A stretch of 52,029 nt of DNA from Capnocytophaga felis (GTDB lineage Bacteria > Bacteroidota > Bacteroidia > Flavobacteriales > Flavobacteriaceae), in NCBI RefSeq assembly GCF_009684755.1, contig NZ_BLBC01000003.1:1-52029 (forward strand), written 5' to 3'. The notes beneath the pieces are model-generated. The model did no database searches, was not told the origin of the DNA, and was given only the letters and a program-made list of their open reading frames with translations. Position numbers and translations under genes: made by a program. Of this stretch, positions 44,182 through 52,029 are shown piece after piece; within the stretch, counting starts at the first letter, position 1, and the number at the start of each line of letters is the position of its first letter.

Positions 44182-45114
44182 TTACTCTTTCGGAATTACC
44201 AATTTAAATCCTTTCCCGCGAAGGACAAGACTTTCTGCCCGAATTTCTTCAACATAAAGGCGATTTGTTCCGTTTGAAATCCCGAGAAAATGCTCTCCTT
44301 CCGGATAAATTTCTGCCTGAATTTCAGCGTGTTCTCCCTGAACCAAATTTCCAACAGAAGCTATCTTCAAGGCTCGTTGTATGGTATGGGATTGCGTTTG
44401 TACTTTTCCATATGGATTAACTCCCGTTGCCATCCAAACTCCCACTCCTTTGCGTTTGACTACCATTTTGGGAGTAATTTGGCGGGAAATCGTTCGTCTT
44501 GTATTGTCGTAGTAGCCAAAAATTTGCGAATCTCCACCGGATTTGGCAATTACTTTTAACTGCTTGGTTTCAACCCCTTGTGCAGAAATCCGAACAATTG
44601 CCTCTCCCTCGTAACGGGCGAACATCTCCAAAATTTTTGTGCTTCCATTCCATTTATAGAGCAAAATTCCGTCAGGGTCATCCACTTCCAATGTAGGTTC
44701 GTCGCCTCCACCGTCTATGCTCACAAACTTGCTTTCTTCGTTAGGATAAATTTGTACTATTTCCTGACTAATACTTATATCAGGAGGAATCACATTGATT
44801 TTCAAATGAGCCTTTTTGTCGTGTGAAATTACCGTTGCAAAAGTTTCTCCCTCAAACAATCCCTTGATTTTGAGCGTATCTTGATGTACCGAGGCTTGTG
44901 CCACTCTGGAATTTTCAATATTCACGGCAAACTTTTCATTTCCACCCGAAAGCAAAATATATCGCGTGGTTTGTTTATTGACCGAAACCTCACTGAGCGA
45001 CTGCTCGTCCTGTCCGATTTTTATTTCGGGAATTGCATTTTGATTTTCTTTCTCGCACGAAGCAAAAAGCCCCAAAATGGCAATACTTATAATGGATTTG
45101 ATTATATATTTCAT
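44182..45114 (-). CDS. Lipoprotein with Ig-like repeats, last gene of the iron-capture-like locus
   Basis: The 310 residues have a lipoprotein signal ending GLFASC, then CEKENQNA. Repeated beta-sandwich-like segments (about 30-115 and 118-200) follow, with GGNEKF / GGGDEP turns like bacterial Ig or BACON modules, and a C-terminal domain (about 205-310) that I do not recognise. It is probably surface or outer-membrane attached. It follows the FN3 protein gene by 24 bases and precedes a terminator. A binding or scaffold role at the cell surface is inferred from context. Confidence 0.8.
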   Translation of the reverse strand: MKYIIKSIISIAILGLFASCEKENQNAIPEIKIGQDEQSLSEVSVNKQTTRYILLSGGNEKFAVNIENSRVAQASVHQDTLKIKGLFEGETFATVISHDKKAHLKINVIPPDISISQEIVQIYPNEESKFVSIDGGGDEPTLEVDDPDGILLYKWNGSTKILEMFARYEGEAIVRISAQGVETKQLKVIAKSGGDSQIFGYYDNTRRTISRQITPKMVVKRKGVGVWMATGVNPYGKVQTQSHTIQRALKIASVGNLVQGEHAEIQAEIYPEGEHFLGISNGTNRLYVEEIRAESLVLRGKGFKLVIPKE

Positions 45115-45138
45115 AACTAACTGATTTTATTTCATTTA

Positions 45139-46224
45139 TTATTTAACTTCCAAATCATATTCTATTTCCCATTGGCGGTCAGCAGCCTCAACTATGATGA
45201 TTTTTAATTTCTGCTTCCCTTTCTGCGGAAAGCTAAATTGGTGTCCGTTGGGTTGTACTTTTTTTCCGTTTACAAAATAAGTAATTTGGGCAGAAGTATC
45301 AGCCAAATCATTGTAAAACAAATCGATAGTCTGCGGACAAGTACCATCATCATTGAGCGTACGCAGATGCGGAACACGTCTTACGTCATTGATATCGTAC
45401 CGCATTGATTGAGTTGTTCCCGTAATATTATTAGTATACTCGGAAGTACTTCCTCCTTTTACGGCTCTTACTTTGAAAGTATAATTGGTTTTCGGCTCCA
45501 AATCTCGCACTAAAAACGAATTGGTTGCAGTACGTTGCGGAGCTTGTGTACCCACCACAACTTCCCATTGTAATCCGGGGTTAGCTTCCTTATCCCACGA
45601 AAGCAAGGCTTCCCGTTGGAAAGTCTGAACCTGAAAACGAGTTGGAACGGATAACTGTGTATTTCCTCCGCCTGAATCGTTTTTGTACACTAATGATACA
45701 TCATCAATCAAAATGTAGCCACTCTCACTAGAACGACTCATTACAAAAGCTACTCCCATTTTGGTAACTCCAATAGGTACAGTAAGTTCCACCTCTCGTT
45801 TTTTCCATTCTGTAGCATTGGGAGTTACTTTCCCTTCAGAATCTCTTTTTATGGGATTTGAGTCATTGGCACTACCATACCAACTTATTACAAGTTCCAT
45901 ATTTTCACGAGTCATTGTTCCTTTATACCAATACGTCAGCAAATAAGTTGCTCCTTCTTGAACATCAATAGCCGCCGATTTGTAATTGTTATCAATCACG
46001 TAAAATTGACTTGCATTGGCATACAACTTAGGACAATATTTCCCCGAACGTGCCTGTTCATAACCGTATTTATCATTTCTAAAAAATGACCCCCACGAAA
46101 AACTCCAATTTTTAGGTTTATCATCAGAGATATATTCTTCAAACCCACCGTTAGGGATTAAATTTTGCTGTGCTTGGGCAATCCACGAAAGTCCCAAAAG
46201 CAATGTTACAAGTATTCGTTTCAT
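45139..46224 (-). CDS. Secreted carbohydrate-binding-like and FN3 domain protein
   Basis: The 361 residues have a Sec signal peptide (about 1-18, ending AQA, no lipobox Cys). An N-terminal jelly-roll starts with NLIPNGGFEEY (about 22-185), the pattern of CBM-like or DUF642-like modules. A fibronectin type III domain (about 195-275, with LLSWDK and YTFKVRAVKGG) and a C-terminal beta domain (about 280-361) follow. It probably sits at the cell surface or in the periplasm and binds a glycan or protein. It is co-oriented between the DUF4856 gene and the last lipoprotein. Confidence 0.82.
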   Translation of the reverse strand: MKRILVTLLLGLSWIAQAQQNLIPNGGFEEYISDDKPKNWSFSWGSFFRNDKYGYEQARSGKYCPKLYANASQFYVIDNNYKSAAIDVQEGATYLLTYWYKGTMTRENMELVISWYGSANDSNPIKRDSEGKVTPNATEWKKREVELTVPIGVTKMGVAFVMSRSSESGYILIDDVSLVYKNDSGGGNTQLSVPTRFQVQTFQREALLSWDKEANPGLQWEVVVGTQAPQRTATNSFLVRDLEPKTNYTFKVRAVKGGSTSEYTNNITGTTQSMRYDINDVRRVPHLRTLNDDGTCPQTIDLFYNDLADTSAQITYFVNGKKVQPNGHQFSFPQKGKQKLKIIIVEAADRQWEIEYDLEVK

Positions 46225-46264
46225 ATTTTATTTATTGTATTTTCTGATTGCTGTTGCTTGTTAC

Positions 46265-46319
46265 TTCTCGATACATTTTTCTTCCGCTATCGCTACAGAA
46301 AAACACTCGAACTGACGAA
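46265..46319. repeat. REP-like palindrome, core type 3
   Basis: It has the same ends as the elements at 49563-50660 (TTCTCGATAC and CACTCGAACTGACGA) but a different inner stem, TTTTTCT with AGAAAAA. It lies between the DUF4856 and FN3 genes. Confidence 0.7.
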
Positions 46320-46333
46320 CTATCCTTAATTTT

Positions 46334-47503
46334 TTACCTTTTTATTTGTTCTATCGAAATACCAAAAGGTTTTCCTACCTGCTCGGCAATGTACTTTAAA
46401 GAGCCTTGCGTTTGAGCATTGGAGAAAAGACGGTCTTTATCCCATAATCCGTTTCCGAGTAGAAATTGTTGCAAAAGATGTTGTATTTGCTCCCGAGAAT
46501 AATAAGGTCCTCCTTGCGGATTTCGGGCAAATTGCAAAGCATAAACAAGCCCATAAGCTCTTGAAATAAAAGGAAATGCGTATCCGCCTCTTTCATCTAA
46601 GTTGGCAAGGGTATTTTCTCCAATTAGTATGTTCATCGTACGTATGGCAATAGCTCGTGAGAGTTCCTCCCGAATGATGTGAAGATGTTGCTTCATATCC
46701 TCGTAGCGGTATCGTTCCAATTCGATGCGTCCTTGCACAAATGCGTTAAAAATACGCACTTCACTGTTTTTGAGCAAAGGAATACCTTCGGCACGTACCA
46801 GCGGACGTAAGAAAGTATAATATCCGTACGCCAAATCCCAATGATGCTCCAATTCGGTGTAATTTCGTCCGGGCGGAAGCACAACATCTTCGTGTTTTTT
46901 TCGAAGCGTTTCATTGTTAAGAAAACTTTCGTCAAGATGATAATTCAACGCCTTGTCCAAATAAATTGCTCCAAAAATTGCATATCTGAATGCCTCTGCC
47001 ACCACGATTCCTTTTTCGTCGGCAAAAGCCAAATTCACATCACCAATGTTGTTGCCTATATAACCTGTTCGCCCTTGTCGTAGTGCCTGTCGCCGAGTGT
47101 CGGAAGGACTCTCTGTGCCATACCCTCCAATTCGGGCGGAAGTTTTGATAAAATCGGTCAAATCTTTTTGAATCGCTTCCCGATTGGCTCGATGCAATTC
47201 CGATTTGGCAACTTCTTCATTAGGCTTTAAATGGCTGTAAACCCCATCGTTATAGTACCTGAAAGCTACCTGATAATCTGCCTGATTCATTATCCTCGCT
47301 TCTTTCAAATAGCTGTTGTACAATACATCTAACGGTTCTTTAAGCAAATTGCATTCCAATAAATCCACACTGCTACTTCCATTGCGGGAGAAGCTGTATT
47401 TGTATTCGGGCGGAAGCGGTTCCAAATATGCCGATTCCACCGTTTCGCCTTTGTTACAGGCAACAAGCATTAAAAGCATTGTAAATAACGTATATCTTTG
47501 CAT
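46334..47503 (-). CDS. DUF4856 lipoprotein
   Basis: The 389 residues have a lipoprotein signal ending MLVAC, then CNKGETVES. The rest is helical with LEHHWDLAYGYY (about 218), RREAIQKDLTDFIKT-type blocks and AIRTMNILIGENTLANLDERGG (about 293). It matches my recollection of DUF4856, a helical family related in shape to imelysin-type iron-regulated proteins. In imelysins such His/Asp/Glu blocks bind metal, so iron binding is plausible. It sits centrally in the iron-capture-like locus, 50 bases after an unrelated cytosolic gene. Confidence 0.82.
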   Translation of the reverse strand: MQRYTLFTMLLMLVACNKGETVESAYLEPLPPEYKYSFSRNGSSSVDLLECNLLKEPLDVLYNSYLKEARIMNQADYQVAFRYYNDGVYSHLKPNEEVAKSELHRANREAIQKDLTDFIKTSARIGGYGTESPSDTRRQALRQGRTGYIGNNIGDVNLAFADEKGIVVAEAFRYAIFGAIYLDKALNYHLDESFLNNETLRKKHEDVVLPPGRNYTELEHHWDLAYGYYTFLRPLVRAEGIPLLKNSEVRIFNAFVQGRIELERYRYEDMKQHLHIIREELSRAIAIRTMNILIGENTLANLDERGGYAFPFISRAYGLVYALQFARNPQGGPYYSREQIQHLLQQFLLGNGLWDKDRLFSNAQTQGSLKYIAEQVGKPFGISIEQIKR

Positions 47504-47553
47504 TTCATTTTGTTTTTACTCTTTCCTTCTTTTTAAGTGAATCATATTTTGAT

Positions 47554-47934
47554 TTATATTTCATTTTGAAATGGCGACTTAGCTTTTGCCATAAACAAAA
47601 TTAGTTTTTGAGGCATTGCCAACCACGAAGTGCCATCGTTTTTTTGTTTGGTGTGCCAAACGACTTCGCCTTGAGGATATTCCCACATTGTTACATCCGT
47701 TTCAAAGCAAAAAGGCGGAATCCACAATAATTTTATCTCACCATCGCCTTCCCAGCCTGCTTCCAAAAATAATTCTTTCACTACTGAAACATAACTTTCT
47801 GCATCTTCCAAAAACTCAGATGGAGAAACCAAAAAATGCAGATTATCAATATATTCATAACTTTCAATTCTAAAATTTCTAATTTCTTCTGGCGGATAAT
47901 TTATCACCATTTTTTTATCTATCGTATAAGCCAT
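47554..47934 (-). CDS. Small cytosolic protein of unknown function
   Basis: I do not recognise a named family in these 126 residues. There is no signal peptide or membrane helix, unlike the exported proteins on both sides. Blocks that look conserved are KLLWIPPFCFETDVTMWEYP, read as KLLWIPPFCFETD and MWEYPQGEVVWHTKQ, and DGTSWLAMP. The size and composition would fit an immunity or adaptor protein, but this is speculation. It lies 18 bases downstream of the propeller-like gene, and the two look like one inserted unit. Confidence 0.72.
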   Translation of the reverse strand: MAYTIDKKMVINYPPEEIRNFRIESYEYIDNLHFLVSPSEFLEDAESYVSVVKELFLEAGWEGDGEIKLLWIPPFCFETDVTMWEYPQGEVVWHTKQKNDGTSWLAMPQKLILFMAKAKSPFQNEI

Positions 47935-47952
47935 ATTTTTTCTATTTAAAAC

Positions 47953-48882
47953 TCATATAAGAACTCCCAATAGTTTTTTATCCTCAGATTGATGTTCAAC
48001 TGCCAAAATCATTTGCTTCTCTTCAAAAAAATGAAGGATAGATGTATGTTTTGGGGAAACAAATTCATTAACAATCTTTTCTTTTTGCAAAGAAAACTGC
48101 CAAATTTTGTTTTCTCCTATCAAAAATAATGATTTTTCATCTTGTGAAAGCATTATTTCAGTGAAATAATGTTCAAAATGATGTGTTTTTTGCTGTTTTT
48201 CCTCTGAAACAATTAAAATTTGACTCAAAGGTCTGAGCGTATCAGTACTCATTGCACCTGCTTTAAATTGCCCCAACTGAAAATAAAAATTGCCCCTTTT
48301 ATCCTTTATACCGTTGTGAAAAGTTTGGGTTTCCAACACAGTTTCCAAGCTATTTTTCGGTAAATTATAGCGTTGTACAACTCCATTTTTTGAACTGAAA
48401 ATCAAATAATTCTCCGCATTTTCTTTAATGATGTTACAGCACCAATCTTTTTTAGTAACTTTCTTTTGTAACATTTTGTTTTCCAAAAAATTAAATACTG
48501 AAATCGTTTTACCAGCATAATTCATCATCACCAAATTCCCTGTATCATCTCCTTGCATAAAAGAGGTGTATTTGGGTATGCCTTTATCAAATTTTTCTTC
48601 TATTTTCAGGAATTCTCGATTGATTTTCAGTATTTTATTATCTGTTATTGCAAAAATAAACTTGCCATCTGATGAAAAATACAGACAACGTATCATACTC
48701 CTTATCAACACATTCGCCGTTTCTTTACCTGAACTAAAAGAAACTCTACGCAGTCGCATTGAGCTATACATCGAAGTCCAGCCGTCTGCCAAGTAGAACT
48801 CATCAGGTGAAAAAGGATCGGCGGTTGGTTGTAAAATGCCAACGATGCTGTTTTTAAATGTCATTTCCCAAAGTATTTTCAT
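47953..48882 (-). CDS. Beta-propeller-like cytosolic protein
   Basis: The 309 residues have no signal peptide. They show repeated short beta segments of the kind DGKFIFAITDNKILKIN, GNLVMMNYAGKTISVFN, NYLIFSSKNGVVQRYN and EKSLFLIGENKIWQFS, suggesting a degenerate six- or seven-bladed WD40-like propeller. It could be a protein-binding platform. It is inserted, with the 126-residue gene downstream, into a locus that otherwise encodes exported proteins. The function is unknown. Confidence 0.72.
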   Translation of the reverse strand: MKILWEMTFKNSIVGILQPTADPFSPDEFYLADGWTSMYSSMRLRRVSFSSGKETANVLIRSMIRCLYFSSDGKFIFAITDNKILKINREFLKIEEKFDKGIPKYTSFMQGDDTGNLVMMNYAGKTISVFNFLENKMLQKKVTKKDWCCNIIKENAENYLIFSSKNGVVQRYNLPKNSLETVLETQTFHNGIKDKRGNFYFQLGQFKAGAMSTDTLRPLSQILIVSEEKQQKTHHFEHYFTEIMLSQDEKSLFLIGENKIWQFSLQKEKIVNEFVSPKHTSILHFFEEKQMILAVEHQSEDKKLLGVLI

Positions 48883-48911
48883 ATTTCTTGTGTCGAACTT
48901 AAATTAAGAAA

Positions 48912-49505
48912 CTACGGCAAAATAATATACTCGCAATAAGGTTGCGGAATTTTGTTAGGACCTTCGCTATTTTGGTTTTGCTTTGTACCAAGAGCAGGAA
49001 CTACCACCAAGCCGTCATCGGAAACCGCCGTGATACTTGCATTCACTCCCGAACCTCTGTCGCCAACTCCATTTACAGAAAGATACATCGGGAAACCGGA
49101 TTTTACCTTATACGTGAACACAAATTCCTTGTCCTTTTCCATAATGAAATTCAACGAGTTATCAGAAGCATCGCTTCCAACGGTTTGTATCTTTTTATCC
49201 GCCGTAATGAACCGCACCACATAACGGGATTTTGTAGCGTTTCGTTCCTCTCGATACCTGCATCTGAGAGTGATTTCATATTCACGCTGATTATCAAGCG
49301 TTACCCCCGGATAACGATAATTCTGTAAAGCCTCATCGGGGTCGCACGTACGTATTCTCATATCTTCATAGACGTTTTCGGGCTTTTCGATGGGTTTAAA
49401 CGGAAATAGCTTTTCGTAATCTTCCTCCGCAGGGTCGCTGTCCTTTACATTACAGGAAAAAAATCCGAGTAAACCTGCAAACAATATGTATTTTACATTT
49501 TTCAT
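48912..49505 (-). CDS. Small surface-type lipoprotein of the iron-capture-like locus
   Basis: The 197 residues have a lipoprotein signal ending GFFSC, then CNVKDSDPAEED. The Lys-Asp pair soon after the lipidated Cys resembles the export signal reported for surface lipoproteins in Capnocytophaga. The mature part is beta-rich (REYEITLRCRYREER, SRYVVRFITADKK, KEFVFTYKV). I do not recognise the domain. It is followed, 29 bases downstream, by the propeller-like gene and preceded by repeats. Confidence 0.78.
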   Translation of the reverse strand: MKNVKYILFAGLLGFFSCNVKDSDPAEEDYEKLFPFKPIEKPENVYEDMRIRTCDPDEALQNYRYPGVTLDNQREYEITLRCRYREERNATKSRYVVRFITADKKIQTVGSDASDNSLNFIMEKDKEFVFTYKVKSGFPMYLSVNGVGDRGSGVNASITAVSDDGLVVVPALGTKQNQNSEGPNKIPQPYCEYIILP

Positions 49506-49562
49506 TTATCTAAAAATTTCTTTTTTTGATGTGATATTCAGTTTAATTTTAGATTTCAACTC

Positions 49563-49920
49563 CGTCACTTCGAGTGAATTTTATCTCCATTGCATTGCGA
49601 TAAAATTTGTATCGAGAAGTGATTTCTTATATCCTAAAAAGTTCTCGATACGATTTGCTACGTTATACTTCGCAAATCACTCGAACTGACGAGTTACATT
49701 CTGCTTTACTTTTTTTATACATTCTCCATAAATGTATTTCTTTCTTTGAATCAACAATGTATTTAACTAATTATTCTATACTCTTACTTCCGTCACTTCG
49801 AGTGAATTTTATCGCAATGCAATGGAGATAAAATTTGTATCGAGAAGCGATTTCCTATATCCTAAAAAGTTCTCGATACGATTTGCTACGGCTTCGCTTC
49901 GCAAATCACTCGAACTGACA
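49563..49920. repeat. Left direct duplication flanking the GIY-YIG gene
   Basis: It contains two pairs of REP-like palindromes (49563-49619 and 49641-49693; 49791-49847 and 49869-49920) joined by a spacer (49694-49790). Core type 1 has the inner stem GATTTGC/GCAAATC. Core type 2 has AATTTTAT/ATAAAATT. All share the end motifs CTCGATAC and TCGAGTGA or their complements. It fills most of the 447-base gap between the lipoprotein and GIY-YIG genes; 49506-49562 shows nothing else. Confidence 0.85.
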
Positions 49921-49952
49921 AGCTCAATTCTATCACTCTGTCAATACAAAAC

Positions 49953-50249
49953 CTAATTTTCTTTATTAAATTTTTTCTTAGCTAAATTAGGTAAATCTTC
50001 ATAATTTCCTTCTATCAATGCTTGTTTTTTCTTTTGTGACCATTTCTTAATTTTCTTTTCAAATTCAATAGCTTGATTTATATCCGTAAAAGTTGCATAG
50101 TAAACCAATTCTACGGGTAATCTGCTTGCCGTGTACGAATTAGGATACTTACCCGATTGATGCTCTTTTAACCTTTCACCCAAATTGGAAGTAACTCCCG
50201 TATAAAAAGTTTTATCCGAACATAATAAAATGTACACAAACGACTCCAT
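49953..50249 (-). CDS. GIY-YIG nuclease family protein
   Basis: The 98 residues form a single GIY-YIG domain of the UPF0213/URI type. FVYILLCSDKTFYTGVTSNLGERL has the GIY as VYI and the YIG as YTG (read here as FVYILLCSDK and TFYTGVTSNLGERL). A His in LKEHQSGKYPNSYTA and the Glu in EFEKKIKKWSQ follow. Such small proteins cut or nick DNA; many are of unknown role. It is flanked by near-identical direct duplications of REP-like repeats, so it is a candidate for the agent that spreads or processes them. Confidence 0.88.
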   Translation of the reverse strand: MESFVYILLCSDKTFYTGVTSNLGERLKEHQSGKYPNSYTASRLPVELVYYATFTDINQAIEFEKKIKKWSQKKKQALIEGNYEDLPNLAKKKFNKEN

Positions 50250-50305
50250 ATTTTATTTTACCAATTTTAAAAGTTCTTAAACCAACATCATTTATACCTA
50301 CTCTC

Positions 50306-50660
50306 CATCACTTCGAGTGAATTTTATAGCAATGCAATGAAGATAAAATTTGTATCGAGAAGTAATTACACTTCCAAAAGTTCTCGATACGATTTGCTAC
50401 GTTACACTTCGCAAATCACTCGAACTGACAAGCTACATTCTGCTTTACTTTTTTTATACATTCTCCATAAATGTATTTCTTTATTTGAATCAACAATGTA
50501 TTTAACTAATTATTCTATACTCTTACTTCCGTCACTTCGAGTGAATTTTATCGCAATGTAATAGAGATAAAATTTGTATCGAGAAGCGATTTCTTATATC
50601 TTAAAAAGTTCTCGATACGATTTGCTACGCTACGCTTCGCAAATCACTCGAACTGACGAG
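50306..50660. repeat. Right direct duplication flanking the GIY-YIG gene
   Basis: It is the same arrangement as 49563-49920: palindromes at 50306-50362 and 50380-50430, spacer 50431-50528, palindromes at 50529-50586 and 50608-50660. The spacer differs from the left copy at very few positions, so the duplication is recent. The rest of the 453-base gap (50250-50305, 50661-50702) shows nothing else. Confidence 0.85.
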
Positions 50661-50702
50661 TTACATTCTGCTTTACTTTTATTCTACCAATTTTCGCAAT
50701 TC

Positions 50703-51746
50703 TTACATTTCTTCATCGGTAATTTCCGCCACAAAATAGGTGGGTTCGCCATCGGGATAAAGATGTTTGCTCACATACATTTCCCGTTTAAGAATCGCGT
50801 CATACACTTTCACCAATTCGCATACAAATTTATCACCCCGACGTTCAAAATCGCGAAAAATATACTTCTCCGTATAACGAAGCCCCGTGCGGAAGGTCAG
50901 CCCCTGCTCCGTTCCCACGTATCCCGAACCCAATCCGGTGCTTTCCTTGGCTATTCGCGGATTTACAAGGTCTGGTTTTTTATTGAAACGAAACAAATAG
51001 TACCGCTTTTCGATGATTTCTCTCAGAAATTGGTTATACTGAGGCGTTCCACGTGTACTACGAACAATCATATCGCTTTGAAAGAAAATACGACTTCCTT
51101 TGCGGATTACCACCTGCGGATTTTTCATCTGTTCGAAAATCTTTCGGTTTTTGTAAGATTCCGTAAGTGCATTATCGGTTGTATTGCGAGTATCTTCCCA
51201 ATCAATTGGCGACTTCAATTTTTCAAAAACGACATACTCCCGAGCTGGTTCAATGTACGAAGCTGTTTTGAAAACCAAATTATTTTCAAAATCTCTTCCT
51301 GCGTACATAAAATCAGAGTTTCCTGAAAATCGGTCGTTTACCAAGTGATGAATGTAATTAAAGGTGGTGAAACTAAGCTGTGTAAAGGTGTTTTGCTTGA
51401 TTTCAAACTCACTTTCTTTGGTTTCCACCATTGATTTACTGTCATAATCGGCACGCATTTGCACGGTTCCTTTATCATCAAATTTCATTAGGAAATAAAA
51501 TCCGCCATAGCCGTAACGCTCACGAAACAAGGGGTCTTTTTCCAAAATTTCATCTTTGTTAGCAAACAACAGCGAATCGGTTTTCGGAAAATAAAGCACC
51601 TTCCAACCATACGGAGCTTCGGTCAGTTCTTTACGTAACGCCTTGATGTTCTGCAAATTTCTGTCAGAAGGCGATACTTCCGAAGGCTCCTCTTTCTTAC
51701 AGGAAATCATTCCCACCAAAACTATCAAAAATAAATATCTTTTCAT
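50703..51746 (-). CDS. DUF4302 surface-type lipoprotein
   Basis: The 347 residues have a lipoprotein signal ending GMISC, then CKKEEPSEVSP. Lys-Glu-Glu right after the Cys matches the surface export signal reported in Capnocytophaga. The mature start NLQNIKALRKELTEAPYGWKVLYFP and GGFYFLMKFDDKGTVQMRAD are the marks by which I recognise DUF4302 (first block read as NIKALRKELTEAPYGWKV). It ends CELVKVYDAILKREMYVSKH and so on. The biochemical role is unknown; DUF4302 genes occur in Sus-like operons. It is the first complete gene of the locus visible here. Confidence 0.85.
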   Translation of the reverse strand: MKRYLFLIVLVGMISCKKEEPSEVSPSDRNLQNIKALRKELTEAPYGWKVLYFPKTDSLLFANKDEILEKDPLFRERYGYGGFYFLMKFDDKGTVQMRADYDSKSMVETKESEFEIKQNTFTQLSFTTFNYIHHLVNDRFSGNSDFMYAGRDFENNLVFKTASYIEPAREYVVFEKLKSPIDWEDTRNTTDNALTESYKNRKIFEQMKNPQVVIRKGSRIFFQSDMIVRSTRGTPQYNQFLREIIEKRYYLFRFNKKPDLVNPRIAKESTGLGSGYVGTEQGLTFRTGLRYTEKYIFRDFERRGDKFVCELVKVYDAILKREMYVSKHLYPDGEPTYFVAEITDEEM

Positions 51747-51791
51747 TAAAACTTAACTTTAAAATTCAATAAACATTTTCAGGTTGTGTTA

Positions 51792-51944
51792 TAAAAAGTA
51801 TGATGCTGGTTTTGATTGTCAGGCTGAGCAAAGTCAGCGAAGACTTGGAGCTGAGTATGTGCATTGAAGCCCTGTAATGATAAGGCTTCGACTACGCTCA
51901 GCCTGACAAAAACACTTCTTTTTTTAAGGGCATCATACTTTTTA
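51792..51944. repeat. Large nested palindrome with 15-base perfect ends
   Basis: The outer arms TAAAAAGTATGATGC (51792-51806) and its complement (51930-51944) are perfect. Inside them GTCAGGCTGAGC (51818-51829) pairs perfectly with 51896-51907, and GAAGCC (51866-51871) with GGCTTC (51884-51889) forms the tip. The element is 153 bases long and carries no gene. It lies in the leader of the DUF4302 gene and resembles a REP/MITE-type element. Confidence 0.82.
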
Positions 51945-51986
51945 CATCACCTTCCATTTTCAAATCCTCAAAAAACGTCATACTAT

Positions 51987-52029
51987 TTATTTTTTATTCC
52001 ATACGGTCGCCTTTTTACTCCGTACCGAC
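51987..52029 (-). CDS. Possible 3' end of the next upstream gene, cut by the window edge
   Basis: At the right edge the minus strand is open in two frames. One ends SVRSKKATVWNKK-stop at 51987-51989. The other ends RYGVKRRPYGIKNK-stop at 51983-51985. One of them is likely to be the C-terminus of the gene preceding DUF4302, expected to be a SusD-like or related exported protein. Too little is visible to decide. Confidence 0.25.
   Translation of the reverse strand, partial: SVRSKKATVWNKK

Follow-up and report, generated by a model that had tools for sequence, protein, structure and literature searches.

At the right-hand end of the window, i.e., the 52,029-nucleotide stretch of Capnocytophaga felis DNA analyzed here (bases 1-52,029 of the 207-kb contig C3; genome of 2.88 Mb in 37 contigs), eight genes lie on the minus strand, all with open and complete reading frames. 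An earlier sequence-only reading had placed here a candidate Sus-like locus of the iron capture system (ICS) type, with SusC and SusD expected beyond the right edge. All eight genes that it described were confirmed on that strand, and rightward extension of the contig revealed SusD and SusC, also on the same strand. Followed from its upstream end, the locus comprises, always on the minus strand, a FecA-like TonB receptor (C3 63987-66215, equal to L112 3988-6216; 742-743 amino acids (aa)), SusC (C3 56756-60118; TIGR04056, 6e-192), SusD (C3 53363-54874; PF14322, 2.8e-57) and a lipoprotein of the TIGR04549 metallohydrolase family (C3 52202-53320; 372 aa; TIGR04549, 9.5e-41; PF15890, 7.9e-63). These are followed, within the window, by a DUF4302 lipoprotein (50703-51746; 347 aa; Pfam PF14135, 4.6e-45), a 197-aa lipoprotein (48912-49505), which gave no match in Pfam and NCBIfam scans to E 0.01, a DUF4856 lipoprotein (46334-47503; 389 aa; Pfam PF16148, 1.7e-88), an exported protein with an FN3 domain (45139-46224; Pfam fn3, 2.5e-7) and an Ig-like lipoprotein (44182-45114; Big_2, 0.0042, a weak match whose 17.5 bits fall under the cut-off of 22.8). 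TIGR04549, DUF4856 and DUF4302 each occur once in the genome.

To our knowledge, the ICS is among the few Sus-type machines reported for iron. According to the parts of PMC5429918 available to us, the published system consists of seven genes (icsA, C, D, E, F, G and H), and in Riemerella anatipestifer icsC-H correspond to B739_0103 to B739_0098, with icsE named as a zinc metallohydrolase; icsH is followed there by genes listed as 'carbohydrate-binding', hypothetical, 'HsdR' and FecA, and these ten genes rise under iron limitation. In C. felis, the TIGR04549 lipoprotein lies directly after SusD, in the position of the Riemerella icsE, which bears that family's name. By gene order, rather than by named sequence, we matched icsF, icsG and icsH to the DUF4302, 197-aa and DUF4856 lipoproteins, icsE to the metallohydrolase-family lipoprotein and icsA to the FecA-like receptor. 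The DUF4302, ~200-aa and DUF4856 genes stand in the same order here and in eight loci (L191-L198) of family f2, which we take for Weeksellaceae; a DUF4856 profile search matched 10 of its 320 genomes, in two genera, and the loci were read in eight of these ten. One such genome (G619, 2.16 Mb, genus g168) carries, in order, SusC, SusD, the metallohydrolase, DUF4302, a 202-aa protein, DUF4856, CBM_4_9, imelysin, HTTM and a TonB receptor. In our reading, this list equals B739_0103 to B739_0094 one for one, with CBM_4_9 as the 'carbohydrate-binding protein', imelysin as the hypothetical protein, HTTM as 'HsdR' and the receptor as FecA, and g168 is presumably Riemerella. In three further g168 loci, gene sizes and order are the same; L193 also has this series, with a second DUF4856, and L196 departs from it after FN3, the Pfam scan covering L191 only.

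In line with these observations, the C. felis locus is very probably an ICS operon, and thus a further member of a known system, with the window holding its downstream half; the type of locus that the sequence-only reading had proposed is supported by the agreement in order with the published R. anatipestifer ICS. That reading had also counted seven genes. The number was right by coincidence, since the FN3 and Ig genes, which it included, are conserved downstream neighbours from outside the published set of seven, and IcsA and IcsE lay beyond the window. The set and order of genes in C. felis equal those of the locus of C. cynodegmi, a species stated to carry the ICS (PMC4447898, in the part available), and for icsC-H those of the Riemerella list. 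The ICS of C. canimorsus (polysaccharide utilization locus 3, PUL3), compared by description only, shares SusC, SusD, further lipoproteins and a TonB receptor (PMC5429918, PMC4447898 and PMC5080379, each in part), whereas in C. felis the FN3 and Ig genes follow, and Trk and small genes are inserted. In R. anatipestifer, by analogy with G619, imelysin, HTTM and another TonB receptor would follow instead, and icsA lies elsewhere.

In order to describe the recurrence of this arrangement, loci of named genomes were scanned; of the 46 obtained, two from Algoriphagus with a distant DUF4856 were left out, plus-strand matches of more than 90 bits were counted, and split pieces of one gene were counted once. 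The order receptor-SusC-SusD-metallohydrolase-DUF4302-~200-aa lipoprotein-DUF4856-FN3-Ig was found in 32 of the 44 remaining loci, Bacteroides fragilis included, with exactly nine genes in 31 of them and nine plus another SusC in one. This recurrence is more than chance, and its spread across Bacteroides, Prevotella relatives, Porphyromonas and Capnocytophaga points to FN3 and Ig as two further candidate parts. Twelve loci differ: the receptor is absent from the stretch covered in L061, L062, L063 and L088, five (L064, L065, L083, L102 and L103) are rearranged, cut or broken, and L090, L093 and L096 (C. sputigena, C. periodontitidis and oral taxon 338) are without the FN3 homologue, which is present in 41 of the 44. 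An Ig homologue was seen in 42, the stretch covered stopping after FN3 in the other two (L065 and L103), and a homologue of the 197-aa lipoprotein occupies the same place in 43, the L064 stretch being the exception in that count.

The lack of the family's catalytic motif in every ICS IcsE that was read is the best new point of the analysis. C. felis IcsE belongs clearly to TIGR04549 (139.7 bits against a cut-off of 75). While the solved zinc metallohydrolase lipoproteins of TIGR04549/PF15890 (PDB 4l7a and 9urd) show HHEFAH, C. felis IcsE has HHQFAK, i.e., HExxH has become HQxxK. HExxH was found in none of 51 copies from ICS loci, 43 from C. felis and 42 named loci (L065 and L102 being without a readable copy) and eight from f2. 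Among the 43, neither the first His nor the Gln varies, the position of the second His is taken by K (27), R (14), H (1) or L (1), and 42 retain the Glu taken as third metal ligand. By alignment, the eight f2 copies show HQxxK (3), HHxxK (3) or NNxxK (2), with the Glu kept in all eight. Family members elsewhere were collected from up to 30 loci per search, yielding 43 distinct proteins besides that of C. felis (seven weak or fragmentary loci contributed none); among the matches listed, all 37 non-ICS members carry HExxH, and the seven from ICS loci carry HQxxK. As IcsE copies are mutually related, these motif counts are not independent. No mention of this loss was found in the literature searched. 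Because HExxH is absent in ICS copies and kept in family members elsewhere, IcsE is, judging from these sequences, probably a non-catalytic subunit.

With regard to regulation, a 19-bp Fur box has been predicted for R. anatipestifer at no more than 100 bp from start codons, and Fur binding was shown for promoters holding it (PMC5609570, in part); likewise, B739_0103 rises in a fur mutant and Fur binds its promoter (PMC7976709, in part). The Fur-box check suggested along with the sequence-only reading yielded a candidate site in C. felis ~55 bp before the icsA start (C3 66270-66288), with 16 of 19 bases matching this box. Across the genome, 32 sites have at most three mismatches to the box, compared with seven for the reversed pattern, and four of the 32 are located no more than 500 bp ahead of a TonB-receptor domain, where 0.24 were expected.

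Of the lipoproteins, DUF4302 fits the published surface-export signal C-X-K-(D/E)2 (PMC5080379, in part) at its lipid-bearing Cys (CKKEE), and partial fits were seen in Ig (CEKEN), DUF4856 (CNKGE), the 197-aa protein (CNVKDSD), IcsE (CSQEK) and SusD (CQGFLEKD). The FN3 protein has a signal-peptide-like start, judged by eye, and no cysteine within its first 40 residues. The predicted model of the DUF4302 protein (predicted local distance difference test (pLDDT) score of 85) is weakly lipocalin-like at residues ~30-180. DUF4856 had been likened to helical iron proteins of the imelysin type: its model (pLDDT 92) is indeed nearly all helical, but no sequence likeness emerged, since hhalign gave a probability of 1.1% against two imelysins, and PDB searches with DUF4856 found no clear relative. 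The link to imelysin observed here is one of neighbourhood only, in some other genomes. In Algoriphagus, DUF4856 stands with imelysin, HTTM and a TonB receptor (L105, Pfam-scanned; L106, outside that scan, has the same layout); these clusters share DUF4856 with C. felis, but at only 24-25% identity and with no SusCD. In L191-L195, DUF4856 also lies near imelysin, an HTTM/gamma-carboxylase-like gene and a TonB receptor (Pfam scan of L191 only), and it is doubled in L193.

As for the working of the locus, its gene content, order and spread, the missing HExxH and a Fur-box-like site are observed here, whereas we infer iron, transferrin and the hand-over, on the basis of the published system and of what is generally known about Sus machines. 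Under iron shortage, Fur would leave the promoter ahead of the FecA-like receptor. SusC and SusD would form a lidded TonB-driven channel, and IcsE, F, G and H, lipoproteins that are most likely exposed at the surface, would hold a host protein loaded with iron, such as transferrin, and pass its iron on, through IcsA and/or SusC. As a zinc-peptidase family member without HExxH, IcsE would probably be a binding or scaffold part, and the iron would be freed without IcsE cutting the carrier, a mechanism that the absence of the motif from every copy read makes testable. More speculatively, and with confidence somewhat short of even, the ICS might be seen as a nine-part machine with a recruited, switched-off metallopeptidase lipoprotein, in which IcsE is a pseudoenzyme that grips the iron carrier rather than cutting it, FN3 and Ig are overlooked parts, and the cassette moves as a block between Bacteroidales and Capnocytophaga.

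Several points weigh against the assignment to the ICS. The ics identities are based on C. cynodegmi and on the order of genes in genomes taken for Riemerella, not on C. canimorsus sequences, the named loci including no record of that species. The genes between icsA and SusC, which we take to be TrkA-like and TrkH-like and hence potassium-transport-like, separate the receptor from the remainder, and inserts interrupt the operon, so that its genes may or may not be co-transcribed. A TonB receptor near a SusCD pair is no proof of iron use. DUF4302 is present in other loci too, and one such gene, BT3961, appears in an iron study with a change of -3.2 (PMC10434189, in part). The Fur-like site has three mismatches to the consensus, and PMC7976709, in the part available, quotes a Fur consensus different from the box used.

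The alternative that survives best, though we consider it unlikely, is the same type of machine serving another iron source here, such as haem, lactoferrin, ferritin or siderophores. It would fit the receptor, whose matches to general receptor models for siderophores and for haemoglobin/transferrin/lactoferrin all stay below cut-off, and which is the most divergent gene relative to the sister genome G019, as if the ligand side had changed: most of it shows 73-78% DNA identity, with 88-99% in the flanking windows, reflecting either local exchange or strong divergence. The remaining core parts, on the contrary, are in line with their counterparts in C. cynodegmi and B. fragilis. Identities to the C. 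cynodegmi locus (L061/L043/L108) are 81% for the receptor, 87% for SusC, 78% for SusD, 66% for the metallohydrolase, 63% for DUF4302, 63% for the 197-aa protein, 64% for DUF4856, 51% for FN3 and 52% for Ig; the corresponding values for B. fragilis are 67, 70, 70, 53, 55, 44, 50, 33 and 44%. The IcsA receptor shares 80-82% identity with the receptors that precede SusC in C. cynodegmi, C. catalasegens, G002 and G019, and 66% with that of C. sputigena. Between IcsA and SusC, the Trk genes are present in C. felis and G019, and one other gene in C. cynodegmi, C. catalasegens and G002; in the first two of these, the receptor lies one gene further upstream.

Far less probable is a peptide or glycan uptake locus, in which SusCD, a peptidase-family lipoprotein and binding proteins would import host glycopeptides, not iron. 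Of the 20 genomes of the genus, 18 have TIGR04549 and 18 have DUF4302, often as adjacent genes and also where DUF4856 is absent, and the FN3 partner in C. felis and the CBM-like partner in L191 would suit this role. Yet no glycoside hydrolase or lyase family was found among the 13 locus genes scanned (Pfam, E 0.01), the HExxH retained in family members elsewhere is missing in C. felis, a FecA-like receptor and a Fur-like site are present, and DUF4856 accompanies imelysin, HTTM and a TonB receptor in the Algoriphagus locus L105.

The assignment to the ICS also has to accommodate the inserts. A GIY-YIG insert of 1.2 kb (49538-50701, minus strand) lies between icsF and icsG, and contains the GIY-YIG gene (49953-50249, minus strand; Pfam 6.5e-17) together with a total of four repeat copies, distributed over both sides of that gene; an 18-base part of this repeat has four copies in the genome, all at this site, and the insert is absent from G019, whose two matches end ~9 bp apart. 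Between icsG and icsH, a 1.4-kb insert (47522-48900, minus strand), likewise absent from G019, holds genes for a 309-aa protein (47953-48882) and a 126-aa protein (47554-47934), both on the minus strand and, by eye, without an evident signal peptide; no homologue of either was found in the other loci scanned. The 309-aa protein is weakly beta-propeller-like, and the 126-aa protein is without a family. The SusC/SusD gap, which contains a DUF559 gene and a methyltransferase gene (C3 55197-56470, equal to L001 11698-12971), is ~1.1 kb longer in C. felis than in G019. This gap appears as a spot of changing small genes: C. cynodegmi has DUF559 and methyltransferase there, separated by another gene, and G019 a different GIY-YIG gene instead. 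G019, in turn, has ~1.0 kb extra between SusD and icsE and ~3 kb extra after the Ig gene. Least probable of all is that the operon is decaying, with transcription broken by inserts between genes, as might be suggested by the three inserts relative to G019, the interrupting Trk genes, a weak terminator-like site where icsG ends (48946-48932, coding strand), and a weak sigma-70-like site before icsH (47570-47541), promoter-like sites being fewer in this region than in shuffles. Against this, all nine genes have uninterrupted reading frames of nearly full length, weak kinds of scan found in the two window inserts neither a terminator-like site on the coding strand nor a flavobacterial promoter-like site, and a 2.6-kb tract (50702-53340) shares 99% identity with the sister genome, perhaps because functional copies were exchanged recently.

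Since identity to G019, the nearest genome, differs among this tract, the other matched pieces (84-91%) and the receptor gene, the locus is a mosaic relative to it. DUF4856 occurs in 10 of 20 Capnocytophaga genomes, a patchy trait whose loss or gain can be compared. In the nine others bearing it, DUF4856 sits with homologues of the remaining genes, some stretches stopping inside the locus; the order is rearranged in G015, and an FN3 homologue was not found in three of the nine, those of the C. sputigena type. In a midpoint-rooted tree built on five joined proteins of 31 loci, C. felis clusters with G019, C. cynodegmi, C. catalasegens and a Capnocytophaga assembly (support 1.0); Bacteroides and Porphyromonas levii types stand beside this cluster (0.935), and a group of 22 (support 1.0) excludes C. 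sputigena, C. periodontitidis and oral taxon 338. Judging from this tree, the ICS cassette has probably moved between orders.

Finally, two 14-base words, TTGTCAGGCTGAGC and GCTCAGCCTGACAA, which are mutual reverse complements ~66 bases apart, were noticed by eye in the icsE/icsF gap (51816-51909).

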